Shown here: piece after piece, positions 776 to 56,520 of the stretch
How positions within the stretch are numbered: position 1 is the first letter of the stretch
Layout: each line of letters begins with the position of its first letter
Origin: Patescibacteria group bacterium
Lineage (GTDB): Bacteria > Patescibacteriota > Minisyncoccia > Moranbacterales > GWC2-37-73
Assembly: GCA_022709545.1 (NCBI GenBank)
Contig: JAKLIP010000002.1
Span: forward strand, 124,001-188,000
Reading direction: 5' to 3'
DNA length: 64,000 bases
Position numbers and translations under genes: made by a program
The notes under the pieces: model-generated
Seen by the model: only the letters and a program-made list of their open reading frames with translations
What the model was told of the DNA's origin: nothing
Database searches by the model: none

Positions 776-2851
776 TTATTTCTTCGTGATTATCCCCTCA
801 GCTACATTTTTTGGGACTTCACTGTAGCGTGAAAATTCCATGTAGTAACTGGCTCGTCCCTGAGTCATGCTTCTCATTTGTGTTGCATATCCAAACATAT
901 TTGCCAATGGAACCTCTGATTCAATTTCTTTAACTCTCGCATTACCTTCTCCACGATCATTGATCTCTTTTATCATTCCCCTTCGTGAGTTTATGTCTCC
1001 TACTACATCTCCCATGAATTGTTCTGGCGTTGTAACTACAACTTTCATAATTGGCTCTAAGATAACTGGATTAGCTCTTTTTACAGCTTCTTGCACAGCC
1101 ATAGACCCAGCAATTTTAAAAGCTGCTTCAGAAGAATCGACTTCATGGAAAGATCCGTCATATAATGTAACTTTAACATCTACCATTGGATAACCAGCTA
1201 AGACTCCATTTTCTAAAGCTTCTTTAACTCCAGCATTAACTGGCTTAATATATTCTTGGGGAATAACTCCACCTTTGATTTCATCAACAAATTCATAACC
1301 CTTACCTGGTTCTTGCGGTTCAACTTTTAGCCAGCAATGACCATATTGTCCACGTCCTCCAGATTGACGAATATATTTTCCTTCCGCCTGCGCTTCTGTT
1401 TTAATCGTTTCCCTATAAGCAACTTGCGGCTGACCGATATTGGCTTCAACATTAAATTCCCGTTTCATGCGATCAATAATGATATCTAGGTGAAGTTCTC
1501 CCATTCCAGAGATAATTGTCTGTCCGCTTTCTTCATCAGTTCTAAGACGTAGGGTTGGATCTTCACCGGCCAATTTTCTGAGAGCCATTCCCATTTTCTC
1601 CTGATCAGCTTTAGTTTTTGGTTCAACAGCAATATCAATAACTGGTTCTGGAAAAGTAATATTTTCCAATATAATCTGGTTTTGTTCATCGCAAAGAGTA
1701 TCTCCGGTTGTCGTATTTTTGAGTCCAACAAGCGCGCCGATTCCACCCGCAGAAATTTCCTGAATTTCTTCGCGGTGATTAGCATGCATCTGCAGTATGC
1801 GTCCGATCCTTTCTTTTTCTCCTTTGGTTGAATTTATAACATATGACCCAGCCTTTAATGTTCCTGAATAAACACGGAAGAAAGTCAGCTGACCCACGAA
1901 AGGATCTGTAGCAATTTTAAAAGCTAAAGCTGAAAATGGTTCACTGTTATCGGCTTTTCTTTCAATTTCTATTCCATCTTTCGGACTATTCCCCTTAACT
2001 GGAGGAATATCAATAGGTGATGGCAAATATTCTACAACTGCATCTAGAACTAACTGAACCCCCTTGTTACGAAGAGCTGTTCCTGTAAGCACAGGTACAA
2101 TTTTTACGTCAATAACCGCTTTGCGAAGCGCCGTCTTGAGTTCTTCAATAGAAATTTCTTCTCCATTCAGATATTTTTCAGTTAGCGCATCATCTGTTTC
2201 TGAAATTTTTTCAATCATCTTTTCTCGCATTTCTTTGGCTTTTTCCAAAAGCTCTGCTGGAACTTCATTCTCTACAACTTTTTCTCCCATATTACCTTCG
2301 AATGTGTAGGATTTCATTTTGATAAGATCAACAACACCACTAAATTCACTTCTTTCTCCGATCGGAATTTGAATGGCTACTGCATTCGGAGTCAAACGAT
2401 TCCAGATTGATTTCATGACAAAATTAAAATCAGCCCCTTCCTTATCAATCTTATTTACGAAACACATGCGCGGGACATGATATTTGTCAGCTTGGCGCCA
2501 AACAGTTTCAGATTGTGGTTCTACTCCTTCTTTTCCGTCAAAAATAACCACTGCGCCATCAAGCACCCGCAGCGATCTTTCTACTTCAACTGTAAAATCC
2601 ACATGTCCGGGAGTATCAATTATATTAATTTGATGCTCTTTCCAGAAACAAGTCGTAGCCGCACTGGTAATTGTAATTCCACGTTCGCGTTCCTGTTCCA
2701 TCCAGTCCATTGTTGCTTCACCCTCATGTACTTCTCCGATTTTATGAGTAATTCCAGTATAAAATAAAATACGCTCTGTGGTTGTTGTTTTCCCGCCGTC
2801 TATGTGAGCTATAATACCTATATTTCTCAGTTTAGAAATGTCCTTGGCCAT
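776..2851 (-). CDS. fusA: elongation factor G
   Basis: A 691-residue translational GTPase that drives ribosomal translocation and, with RRF, recycling. The P-loop is AHIDGGKTT (residues 15-23), DTPGH is at 79-83 and NKID near 135, followed by domains II-V at full family length. The residue before the P-loop GK pair is Gly where most EF-G have Ala (AHIDAGKT), a mild variant. It is the last gene of the rpsL-rpsG-fusA operon; no tuf follows. ATG start at 2851 is fixed by the conserved N-terminus. Confidence 0.97.
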
Positions 2852-2898
2852 ACTTAATTAACTTTTACTTTTATATTAAAAAAGTTCTTGTATAAAAA

Positions 2899-3366
2899 TT
2901 ATGCAAAATGAGCAAAAGCTTTGTTGGCTTCAGCCATTCTGTGCGTATCGTCACGCTTTTTTATTGCACTTCCAACTTTATTTGATGCATCAATAAGTTC
3001 ATCAGCCAATTTTTCTGCCATTTTTTTACCTTTACGTGAACGTACAGCAGTCAATATCCAGCGAATTGCAAGAGTTTGCCTTCTTTCTCCGCTAACCTGT
3101 ATTGGCACTTGATAATTTGCTCCTCCTATTCTTTTTGATTTAAGCTCTAAAAGTGGCGAAACGTTTTTAATTGCCTGTTCAAAAATATTAAGTCCGCCCT
3201 TTTTAGTTCGATCATGAATAATATCAAAGCAATCGTAAATAATTTTTTCAGCAATATTACGCTTTCCATTTTTCACTAAATTGCCTATAAAACGACCCAC
3301 TAAAATATTTCCATATCTTGAGTCCGCTTTCCACTTTTTCTGAAATGTTCTTTTTCTTCTTGCCAT
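2899..3366 (-). CDS. rpsG: 30S ribosomal protein S7
   Basis: A 155-residue primary 16S rRNA-binding protein of the small-subunit head. The basic N-terminus and the motifs RYGN, GGANYQVP, RR.T.A.RW and HRMAEANKAFAHF are all present and the length is normal. It lies 20 bases after rpsL and 47 before fusA in the str operon. In other bacteria S7 represses this operon by binding its mRNA; no specific site was identified here. Confidence 0.97.
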   Translation of the reverse strand: MARRKRTFQKKWKADSRYGNILVGRFIGNLVKNGKRNIAEKIIYDCFDIIHDRTKKGGLNIFEQAIKNVSPLLELKSKRIGGANYQVPIQVSGERRQTLAIRWILTAVRSRKGKKMAEKLADELIDASNKVGSAIKKRDDTHRMAEANKAFAHFA

Positions 3367-3386
3367 TTTCTTCTTAAATTAAAATA

Positions 3387-3809
3387 TTATTCAGCTTTTA
3401 TTTTTGGTTTTTTAGTTCCATATTTACTACGGCTTCTGTTTCTTTTATCTGTTCCGGCACTATCAAGTACTCCGCGAACAATATGATAACGCACTCCAGA
3501 AAGATCTTTAACGCGTCCTCCTCGAATCATAACAATTGAATGCTCTTGGAGATTATGTCCAATTCCTGGAATGTATGCTGTTACTTCCATGCCATTTGTA
3601 AGTTTTACGCGAGCTATTTTTCGAAGCGCTGAATTTGGCTTTTTAGGTGTTGTAGTACCAACCTTAATGCAAACTCCGCGCTTAAAAGGATTGACTGTTT
3701 TTTTTGGTTTATTTTTAAGCGTGTTAAAAGTCATCATTATAGCAGGTGATTTTGTTTTTTTGGATGTAGATTTCCTTTTTTTCTTCATTAACTGATTTAT
3801 TGTTGGCAT
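3387..3809 (-). CDS. rpsL: 30S ribosomal protein S12 with internal insertion
   Basis: A 140-residue decoding-centre protein, about 16 residues longer than the usual ~124. [42 protein letters not shown]-like [13 protein letters not shown] and [10 protein letters not shown] are conserved. The extra length sits between SPA (near residue 23) and KRGVC, where [19 protein letters not shown] replaces a short linker. The lysine in TTTPKKPNS that is mutated in streptomycin-resistant strains is wild type. It is the first gene of the str operon, behind a strong promoter. Confidence 0.96.
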
Positions 3810-53492: not shown

Positions 53493-54299
53493 TTATGGAT
53501 GCATGTTTTCAAAAGGCGAAAAATTTTCAGGTGGAGGTAAATGCTCTGGATTGTTTTTCCCCTGCCGATTAAAACGCTGATTGCGCGGAGTTTTTCCGTC
53601 CCAGTCTTCCGGAAAAGTTCTTATTGAAAACGCACTTATTGAAAAGTCATTATTTTTTTTGCCTATAATTCCTACTTTATCGCCCACAGAAAATTCAGAT
53701 GGATTATTTTTCTCTGTTCTATCGTTATAAACTATCTTCCATTCTTCACCATCAAAACTTTTTATTGAAAATTCATTTGTCCCAATGTTTATAATTTCCC
53801 CACCAATGAGACCGTCCCCAGGTCTTGTCCAGCGTCCTTCCCTAGGAGCGACCAATCTTTTTAAATTAGGTGTATTTTTTGAAAATGCTCCGTGCATTTT
53901 ATTGTCTATCTTGAGAAAATGACTAATAAAAGCCAAGATGGAAATTATAAGCACAACCAGGCTAGTTATAAAAAGTGTACTGTGCCTATAACCTTTATGG
54001 GTTCCCCTGAAAGCTTTTATGCCGAAATAAAGAGCCGCCAAAGAAAGGATTATCCATAAATAAGGAGCGGTAACAGTAATAATTCTGACAAATTTAAATA
54101 ATTCCATGTGGCGTATAAATCTTGGATCTATATCAGAAACATTCAAAATAGCTAGCGACAGAGATAGTGCTCCTATAAGTATCATCACTACCATTAAAAT
54201 CCAAAACAAATAGCTTTTCCATTGCAACTTTAATTTTGATTCGGGAATAATGTGTCCTTCTTTGATTTTTTCTATGATTTTTTTAGAGATGTCTTTCAT
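53493..54299 (-). CDS. membrane protein with DUF5666-like tail, possible anti-sigma partner
   Basis: A 268-residue protein four bases after an ECF sigma gene. A ~28-residue basic cytosolic N-terminus, three helices (about 30-53, 70-97 and 103-128), then an outside region whose ~75 residues GGEIINIGTNEFSIKSFDGEEWKIVY..VGDKVGIIGKKNNDFSISAFSIR resemble the DUF5666 gene at the other end of the operon. Its position and topology suit an anti-sigma or sensor role; I cannot see a known anti-sigma motif. Confidence 0.6.
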   Translation of the reverse strand: MKDISKKIIEKIKEGHIIPESKLKLQWKSYLFWILMVVMILIGALSLSLAILNVSDIDPRFIRHMELFKFVRIITVTAPYLWIILSLAALYFGIKAFRGTHKGYRHSTLFITSLVVLIISILAFISHFLKIDNKMHGAFSKNTPNLKRLVAPREGRWTRPGDGLIGGEIINIGTNEFSIKSFDGEEWKIVYNDRTEKNNPSEFSVGDKVGIIGKKNNDFSISAFSIRTFPEDWDGKTPRNQRFNRQGKNNPEHLPPPENFSPFENMHP

Positions 54300-54303
54300 A
54301 TGT

Positions 54304-54882
54304 TTAATTATTTATTCCAAATTTATTACTGGCCTCTTTAAGAAGCATTTTTCTTCCGCGGTTTATAAGTGCCGCCACCGTCCCCTTGGGTTTCTGGATA
54401 ATATCCATTATTTCCTCATAATTTTTGTCTTCCAAAAACCTTAGCACCAGCACTTCTTTATATTTATACGGCAGCTCGTCTATTATCTTGCGTATGATAT
54501 CCAGATGATTTCTTGCTTCCGCCTGTATATGCACATCTATGTCTGACTGAAAAAATTTAAGCACATCATTTTCTTCGAAATACATAGCCTGTGGCCGCGC
54601 CTGTTTTTTTCTTATGGCATCAATCGTTGCATTCCTGGCTATTTGATATATCCACGAAGAAAATTTTAAATCATTATCAAATATATTCAAGCTTTTATAC
54701 GCTTTTATAAATGTCTCCTGTATAATGTCTTCTATATCTTCATCGGCAAAATAAGAAATTCTTTTAATATAGCGAAACAGGCGATCTTGATATCGCAATA
54801 CGATTTCACTGAAAGCATCTGGACTTCTTTTTGAAAACTGAACCAATTCATTATCTGTCATTTCGGCTGATTTTTCTGGCAT
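54304..54882 (-). CDS. ECF-type RNA polymerase sigma factor
   Basis: A 192-residue group 4 sigma factor. Region 2 is AFSEIVLRYQDRLFRYIKRI..IEDIIQETFIKAYKSL and FSSWIYQIARNATIDAIRKKQ. Region 4 is IIDELPYKYKEVLVLRFLEDKNYEEIMDIIQKPKGTVAALINRGRKML. First gene of the operon with the MacAB-like pump. A 16-base palindrome lies just upstream. Translation start at ATG 54882 or the downstream ATG before TDNELVQ; neither has a clear ribosome site. Confidence 0.93.
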   Translation of the reverse strand: MPEKSAEMTDNELVQFSKRSPDAFSEIVLRYQDRLFRYIKRISYFADEDIEDIIQETFIKAYKSLNIFDNDLKFSSWIYQIARNATIDAIRKKQARPQAMYFEENDVLKFFQSDIDVHIQAEARNHLDIIRKIIDELPYKYKEVLVLRFLEDKNYEEIMDIIQKPKGTVAALINRGRKMLLKEASNKFGINN

Positions 54883-55037: not shown

Positions 55038-55066
55038 TTGACAAATGAGAGCACGTGTTGTACGAT
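55038..55066 (+). promoter_or_regulatory. promoter of NYN-sigma pair
   Basis: TTGACA (55038-55043), 17 bases, TACGAT (55061-55066). A second TTGACAAAT lies 21 bases upstream (55017), so the region may hold an alternative -35 or a repeat for a regulator. Leader of about 75 bases with two ribosome-site-like tracts. Confidence 0.65.
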
Positions 55067-55147
55067 CCATTTAAAACATTTAGGAAAGGAGGTTAAAAAA
55101 AGCATTAATATTAGTAGTTTAAAATCAGAATAAAAAAGGAGTATTTT

Positions 55148-55705
55148 ATGCCAAAAAATGCAATAGTAGCAGTAGATTTCTCTAATATAACTTCAGCTTT
55201 TGAAGATATTAGAAGAAAGTCTGGTTTGGATCCAAGAAGTAAACTTGATTTGGAGAAGCTTGTCAATATTGCAACGATGGGCTCAAATGTTGCCTCAAAA
55301 ACAGTGTATGTAGAAACAAGAAGCACGGATGACCAGGTTGGCCAGCGAAAATTCTTGTATCAGTTCTCCGTTAAAGGCTTTAACGTTGTTACGAAAGAAG
55401 TAAAACGTATATGGACCGGGGTCGGTACAAAAGAGAAGGCTAATTTTGATGTAGAAATTACGACAGACATCAGCGACAGCTTCTGGCGAAGAGATTGTGA
55501 TGAAATTATACTTCTTTCCGGCGATTCAGATTTTGAATATCTTCTCAGCAAAATAAAAAAAAGAGGAGGAATCAGCGTAACAATCGTGTCTTCAGATGAT
55601 ACAGTTTCAAGAGAACTGAGAGCATTGGCCGACAGACTAATTCTTATTGGCCATGATGTAAAAATGGAGGAAATATCTTTTATAAACTCAAAATCTGCAC
55701 AATAG
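55148..55705 (+). CDS. NYN/LabA-like (DUF88) domain protein
   Basis: A 185-residue PIN-like nuclease-fold protein. AIVAVDFSN, a central FDVEITTDI and IILLSGDSDFEYLL carry the acidic metal-binding residues of NYN domains. These act as RNases in several systems; LabA members act in clock and gene regulation. ATG follows AAGGAG. It is 20 bases upstream of a truncated sigma factor gene, and the two are probably one unit. Confidence 0.88.
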   Translation: MPKNAIVAVDFSNITSAFEDIRRKSGLDPRSKLDLEKLVNIATMGSNVASKTVYVETRSTDDQVGQRKFLYQFSVKGFNVVTKEVKRIWTGVGTKEKANFDVEITTDISDSFWRRDCDEIILLSGDSDFEYLLSKIKKRGGISVTIVSSDDTVSRELRALADRLILIGHDVKMEEISFINSKSAQ

Positions 55706-55725
55706 CATAAAAATCGAGGTGAATA

Positions 55726-56466
55726 ATGGCAAAAAATCAAAATGAAGAAACGGCTTGCTTGCGTTTTCTCATAAAACAAGCACAAAAATGCCCACGATTA
55801 TCTAGAACAGAAGAGAGCGAGCTCCTGGAAAAAATATGCGAACAAAGAAATGAAGGCGAAGAAAAGAAAAAATTAACGGAGATGGAGAAAAAAATAGTCG
55901 AATCGAATATGGCTTTTGCCATTTTTTTCGCCAGAAAAAATTGGAATAGTGGATTAGCAATTGAAGATTTAATCCAAACGGCAAATATCGGATTAATCTT
56001 GGCTGTTAAAACATTTAAGTCTGATTGCGGTTGCGGGTTTGCAAGATGGGCCGGGTTTTACATCAAGACCAGGATAGACGTTGAGTTGGCTTATCAATCA
56101 GATAATATTTCTGTTTCGCGCCAATTAAGGAGGGCAATAATAGAAATTGAAAAAACTGAGAAGAATTTTTTGCAGAATTACAAGCGGTTACCAACTCATG
56201 AAGAGCTGGCAGAGTGTTTGGGCCTTACTAAGGAGAAAATCTCTGAAGTACAGGTTATAAGGAAAAGAGGAAAAACATTCTCCTTTTCTAAACTAGTCAA
56301 CGAAGATGATGACTCGACGATCGATTGCGTTATACCAGACTCTAAAAATATTTCTTCCGAAGAGACAGTGCAAGACAAAGATATGGCTGATCAAATTCAT
56401 AAGGTTTTGACTACATTGAAAGCTAGTGAAGAAAAAGTCATCAGATTACGTTTTGGCCTAAGATAA
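55726..56466 (+). CDS. sigma-70 family factor ending before region 4.2
   Basis: A 246-residue protein. Region 1.2-like ETACLRFLIKQAQKCPRLSRTEESEL, region 2 (NMAFAIFFARKNWNSGLAIEDLIQTANIGLILAVKTF..FARWAGFYIKTRI), region 3 (LPTHEELAECLGLTKEKISEVQ) and only the start of region 4 (ASEEKVIRLRFGLR) are present. The stop TAA comes exactly where the -35-binding helix-turn-helix should begin, and other frames after it do not encode it. It is a natural-looking truncation, followed at once by a terminator. It could bind core RNA polymerase with weak or no -35 reading. Confidence 0.82.
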   Translation: MAKNQNEETACLRFLIKQAQKCPRLSRTEESELLEKICEQRNEGEEKKKLTEMEKKIVESNMAFAIFFARKNWNSGLAIEDLIQTANIGLILAVKTFKSDCGCGFARWAGFYIKTRIDVELAYQSDNISVSRQLRRAIIEIEKTEKNFLQNYKRLPTHEELAECLGLTKEKISEVQVIRKRGKTFSFSKLVNEDDDSTIDCVIPDSKNISSEETVQDKDMADQIHKVLTTLKASEEKVIRLRFGLR

Positions 56467-56484
56467 GAACAAGATACTATTTAC

Positions 56485-56520
56485 AAAAACCATGCAATTA
56501 ACAAATTGCGTGGTTTTTTC
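56485..56520 (+). terminator. terminator after truncated sigma gene
   Basis: A near-perfect 15-base stem, AAAAACCATGCAATT and AATTGCGTGGTTTTT, four-base loop, then T-run. It also faces mscL. Confidence 0.88.

Follow-up and report, generated by a model that had tools for sequence, protein, structure and literature searches.

A short sigma factor homologue encoded beside an RNase-like protein in a genome of the Moranbacterales is probably, judging from its sequence and predicted fold, a sigma relic or antagonist that binds the core polymerase and does not initiate. It has lost region 4.2, which reads the −35 element and binds the β-flap, and also the residues of regions 2.4 and 3.0 that read the bases of the −10 and extended −10 elements. 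Most of the region 2.2 helix, predicted to dock on the β′ coiled-coil, is retained, as is, in the predicted structure, the sigma2/sigma3 fold. Such a protein would bind the core polymerase and would be unable to form a normal open complex; as a competitor for, or holder of, the core enzyme, it would lower RpoD-dependent initiation or redirect the polymerase to unusual sites. It would probably act when the neighboring NYN gene is expressed, given their likely co-transcription. Our leading, still tentative reading is that of a fast-diverged, lineage-specific paralogue of the RpoD type that may bind core without forming a normal open complex and thereby compete with RpoD.

The apparent two-gene unit

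The window, by which we mean the whole 64,000-nucleotide stretch of DNA that was analyzed, is part of a 375-kb contig in a genome of 1.02 Mb. The relatives that carry names are Moranbacteria and other Parcubacteria, which makes its source, a small uncultured bacterium, a Moranbacteria-type member of the Patescibacteria. On its forward strand, a 185-residue NYN-domain (LabA-like, PIN-fold) RNase-like protein, assigned by Pfam NYN, is encoded at 55148..55705 (+), followed at 55726..56466 (+) by a 246-residue protein of the sigma-70 family, recognized with NCBIfam RpoD_Cterm, AlphaFold2, and Foldseek, that has a weak region 1.2 and regions 2, 3, and 4.1, without region 4.2. A preliminary description of this DNA had placed the two genes 20 bases apart, behind one strong promoter and before one terminator. 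Both open reading frames and the 20-nt gap between them, on the same strand, are confirmed. The unit is indeed closed by an intrinsic terminator-like hairpin with a T tract at 56485..56518 (+; 15 pairs, −20 kcal/mol, z −6.5), beyond which, 3′ of the sigma gene, lies a divergently encoded mscL-like gene. The strong promoter is plausible only: the promoter-like element upstream of the NYN gene, TTGACA-17-TACGAT at 55038..55066 (+) and without TGn, matches the pattern at 10 of 12 positions, but promoter-type matches in the region are not above chance (17 against a shuffle mean of 14.3). Ribosome-binding sites, likewise plausible, precede both frames (AAAGGAG and GAGGTGA). The NYN protein and the short sigma form an apparent two-gene unit that is likely co-transcribed.

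Two further features of the neighborhood deserve mention. The leader of the NYN gene contains a second Shine-Dalgarno-like stretch (AGGAAAGGAGG; window 55082-55092) with no suitably spaced ATG, GTG, or TTG; it may be a feature of the leader or be due to chance. Divergent to the NYN gene, at window 53493-54882 (−), are encoded an ECF-type sigma and a 268-residue membrane protein, which are adjacent in 10 of 11 related loci and likely constitute a sigma/anti-sigma-like pair.

The NYN protein and its pairing with a sigma

By its sequence, the RNase-like NYN protein is ordinary; elsewhere it occurs without a sigma, and a physical partnership between the two products is not assumed. It matches the full Pfam domain (PF01936) with an E value of 9e-21 and a score of 75.3 bits, the cut-off being 24.2; N13, D101, E103, D107, D126, and D128 are invariant among nine homologues, and a relative in the PDB is 2qip (6e-8). 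Set against the NYN (LabA-like) proteins of PF01936, it shares the full domain, the conserved acidic residues, and the SGDSDF motif, and is unlike them only in having a sigma as its neighbor.

Of 142 relatives, 8 encode homologues of 38–49% identity, and members of the wider NYN family are common. Conservation of the pairing, to which the preliminary description had pointed as a check, is contradicted by their surroundings: a sigma profile detects no sigma in the 696 kb that flank NYN homologues at 111 loci, and in 18 further such loci of the class it finds only the window's own pair, which served as the positive control of that scan. Viewed from the sigma side, the linkage has no orthologue of the short sigma with which to be compared. 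As far as tested, the pairing is specific to one genome. Nor does PADLOC reveal a link to defense, its matches being only to general NYN and the MzaA sigma. A dedicated RNA polymerase antagonist, co-expressed with the RNase-like protein in a unit that would lower both transcription and RNA levels, strikes us as a long shot.

A sigma factor that ends before region 4.2

The short sigma matches NCBIfam RpoD_Cterm at 3.2e-37, with the match ending at position 191 of 238, and the Pfam models Sigma70_r3 at 8.8e-9 and Sigma70_r2 at 2.8e-6, the latter over only positions 2-58 of 71. Its C-terminal end, EEKVIRLRFGLR, falls between regions 4.1 and 4.2 and carries no added tail, in agreement with the earlier statement that the protein stops where region 4.2 begins. 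A search of the whole genome with Sigma70_r4 finds nothing downstream of the stop, which rules out a simple frameshift or split gene. With regions 2 and 3 present and a complete region 4 (4.1 and 4.2) absent, the protein is, on these domain matches, a sigma-70 homologue and not a complete sigma-70 factor. Its AlphaFold2 model has a mean pLDDT of 86.6 and a confident sigma2-sigma3 portion, with which Foldseek retrieves solved SigA chains, the best being Staphylococcus aureus SigA (3.8e-13). The regions 1.2 to 3 assigned previously stand insofar as regions 2 and 3 are matched; region 1.2 is poor (2 of 12 RpoD invariants), as are regions 2.3, 2.4, and 3.0.

Loss of the promoter-reading residues

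From approximately residue 54 to residue 178, the short sigma aligns without gaps to solved sigmas, such that its residues can be mapped to Escherichia coli numbering. The readers of the −10 and extended −10 elements were taken from the literature, with H455 and E458 reading the TGn of the extended −10 (PMC2613000). Replaced among the readers are R436K, Q437T, T440D, R441V, R451S, H455Q, and E458R, and the aromatics of region 2.3 have been swapped conservatively (Y430W, W433F, and W434Y). A single residue, F427, is kept of 11 that contact DNA in this way, the lowest number for any of 66 sigmas, with two kept in each of the next two, although this set of 11 was picked from the literature after the short-sigma sequence had been seen. 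The loss of −10 and extended −10 readers constitutes a second change, absent from the preliminary description.

The columns that are at least 95% conserved in 39 RpoDs delimit this loss along the protein. Of such columns, the short sigma retains 8 of 11 in region 2.2, 4 of 13 in region 2.3, 3 of 14 in region 2.4, and 2 of 12 in region 3.0; regions 2.3–3.0 together retain 9 of 39, against the 8 of 11 in region 2.2 (Fisher p 0.004). Within the core-binding helix, D403, Q406, and N409 are kept, and two core contacts are changed, L402E and E407T, E402 being present in many viral sigmas.

Given that most of the core-binding helix survives, the simplest working model is a protein that binds core but does not initiate productively. 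The intact open reading frame, its ribosome-binding site, the adjacent terminator, and the confident sigma2-sigma3 model all lend it support; L402E and E407T, the low codon adaptation of the gene, and the aromatic changes of region 2.3, whose conservative nature means that some DNA melting may remain, weaken it. Also counting against it are group-3 sigmas, which remain functional despite differences at several of these positions. A laboratory benchmark is provided by E. coli sigma70 deprived of region 4.2, which is inactive at the −10/−35 promoter lacUV5, weak at an extended −10 promoter, and defective in initial transcription (PMC7948647); lacking the −10 and extended −10 readers in addition to region 4.2, the short sigma should do worse. 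Among the three ideas advanced in the preliminary description, an anti-activator, an extended −10 reader, and a sigma in need of a partner, the first, taken as a core binder that does not initiate, is the best, and the other two fare poorly for reasons that follow.

An orphan: divergence or decay

Besides the short sigma, the genome encodes a single RpoD-like protein, the full-length RpoD (C10:193625, a 449-residue frame), with which it is 31% identical. No orthologue of the short sigma was found in 142 relatives, 384 genomes of the class, or 380 genomes of the phylum, where the best matches are longer, ordinary sigmas of approximately 30–34% identity; those whose C-termini were read keep region 4, except for one (L202) with an ambiguous C-terminus. 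Viral, genome, phage, and plasmid collections contained no closer relative, and a literature search on Moranbacteria sigma factors found nothing. The short sigma is an orphan in everything searched, and conservation of its truncation cannot be demonstrated. In the tree, it joins two divergent sigmas of one genome of the Moranbacteria order (G019) with an SH-aLRT of 92, all on long branches, a join that may be false for that very reason; both of these sigmas keep region 4. A viral origin was considered and rejected, as the tree gives no supported grouping with viral sigmas. Native codon usage spans 0.053–0.228 in 36 long open reading frames of the window, and the short sigma, at 0.053, lies at its lower limit; its third-position GC is 0.35 versus 0.28. 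These values would also fit a foreign or decaying gene.

Unusual RpoD-like genes were encountered elsewhere in the survey. One locus of G019 (L037; G019:C23:10444-13393) has three in tandem, RpoD and two strongly diverged copies with region 4, and two other loci (L033 and L206; G045:C1 and G034:C6) encode RpoD-like sigmas in frames of 862 and 893 residues, in which the sigma domain is flanked on either side by long stretches.

The main rival to the core-binder reading is decay, whereby a sigma gained by duplication or acquisition lost its region 4.2, drifted most visibly at its DNA-reading residues, and has no present role. The lack of an orthologue in any collection searched and the low codon adaptation are what such a history would leave, and the retention of region 4 by the two G019 sigmas on its branch also favors it. 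An intact frame of 246 codons with a ribosome-binding site, an adjacent terminator, and a confident fold is harder to reconcile with decay, as is the retention of region 2.2 above its surroundings, since drift should not spare the core-binding helix. On balance, decay appears somewhat unlikely.

A possible role at promoters of another type

Extended −10 promoters, several of which had been noticed in the window (parA, murJ, nrdR), are indeed enriched there: the motif occurs in 9 of 37 upstream regions, compared to 3.9 in shuffles (maximum 8). The abundance of these motifs, the chemically kept aromatic face of region 2.3, and the partial activity of sigma70 without region 4.2 at extended −10 promoters (PMC7948647, PMC2613000) would suit a sigma that serves a small regulon of another promoter type, through a non-canonical −10 or activator guidance, or as an extended −10 reader. 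However, the residues that read the extended −10, H455 and E458 (PMC2613000), are Q and R in the short sigma, Q437, T440, R441, and R451 are gone as well, and the promoter-like match of its own unit, with a perfect −35 and no TGn, suits RpoD. As the genome's full-length RpoD keeps both H455 and E458, the extended −10 promoters of the window need no special sigma. The substitutions H455Q and E458R disfavor the extended −10 reader envisaged previously, and a role at other promoter types in general is improbable.

A possible split sigma and the sigmas of viral contigs

Split sigmas are real, as exemplified by SigO/RsoA in Bacillus subtilis (PMC8103513) and gp55/gp33 in phage T4 (PMC2988020), and these precedents lend some credit to the notion that a separate protein supplies region 4 to the short sigma. 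A candidate is encoded in the same genome. Scans with Sigma70_r4 return RpoD, ECF sigmas, two DUF134 proteins, and a 351-residue protein that combines sigma-70 region 4 with HARE-HTH and lacks region 2, the only free Sigma70_r4 protein (G000:C1:224946-225998; L076:1417-2472). A search of 96 genomes of the order and nearby finds this protein in 93, almost all of them without the short sigma, and it is probably, from this distribution, an important transcription protein of the Moranbacteria order and its vicinity. Such ubiquity argues that it is not the dedicated partner of an orphan, as the earlier idea of a region-4 partner would have it; it is also encoded on another contig, and no region-4 gene stands beside the short sigma. 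A partner, moreover, would not restore the lost −10 reading.

Viral contigs offer a further analogy. Among 80 loci obtained by scanning IMG/VR with a sigma alignment, 11 have RpoD-like sigmas that end at region 4.1 or soon after it. A single group unites eight of them (SH-aLRT 90; L215, L219, L239, L264, L270, L281, L282, and L290, at approximately 2450-3560 of each locus and up to approximately 4040 in L219), and all eight have downstream of the sigma a conserved frame of about 95 residues (roughly 90–100). This frame lies directly after the sigma in six loci, one gene farther on in L219, and in L239 it was seen as an open frame only. Its pattern is MSMPKG...YREIAEKMT..G.KMNHSTARNVFL.AM.K.A. 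The phage sigma and its small frame are possibly a split sigma, which would favor the same arrangement for the short sigma, but the small protein, HTH-like by eye, is not detectable as a region 4 and was rejected as one (hhalign probability 0.2%, no Foldseek match, re-examined candidates with Z below 4), and the genome of the short sigma encodes no homologue of it. Unlike the short sigma, the eight-member group keeps 6–11 of the 11 −10 readers. A split sigma is, in sum, quite improbable here. Three other viral sigmas of 228–232 residues (L221, L234, and L256) end right after region 4.1, retain every −10 and extended −10 reader, and lack a downstream frame of this kind; they are natural versions of the sigma70 construct without region 4.2.

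Finally, the short sigma might act as a mimic that sequesters an anti-sigma factor or some other protein that binds sigmas, a highly improbable reading. PhyR offers a precedent for a sigma-like domain with no remaining part in initiation (PMC8103513). However, no anti-sigma candidate adjoins the short sigma, and PhyR is described as having lost its contacts with both promoter and core, whereas most of region 2.2 survives in the short sigma.

Significance and comparison with known systems

Most known sigma-like proteins that lack region 4 come from phages and a handful of two-subunit systems. If the core-binder reading is true, a cell-encoded sigma that also lacks the −10 readers would represent a natural dominant-negative sigma, a case of limited weight as it comes so far from a single genome. 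More broadly, the recurrence of sigmas without region 4.2, in at least 11 of 80 viral loci and at several places in the tree, makes the role of this region testable in nature.

Compared with RpoD and SigA (sigma-70 groups 1–2), to which it is 27–34% identical, the short sigma shares the sigma2/sigma3 fold, the region 2.2 helix, region 3.2, and region 4.1 up to LRFGL; it differs in having no region 4.2, a poor region 1.2, and replaced DNA-reading residues in regions 2.3–3.0. The E. coli sigma70 construct without region 4.2 ends at nearly the same point, with 4.1 kept and 4.2 absent, but keeps all the −10 and extended −10 readers that the short sigma does not (PMC7948647). With gp55/gp33 of phage T4, the short sigma has in common a sigma without the sigma4 domain and, presumably, docking on the β′ coiled-coil; gp55, however, reads a late promoter of the −10 type together with gp33 and the sliding clamp, and no such partner is found here (PMC2988020). 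With SigO/RsoA, it shares a polypeptide that contains sigma2 and no sigma4, but the operon partner there is the sigma4 half (PMC8103513), whereas here the neighbor is an NYN protein.
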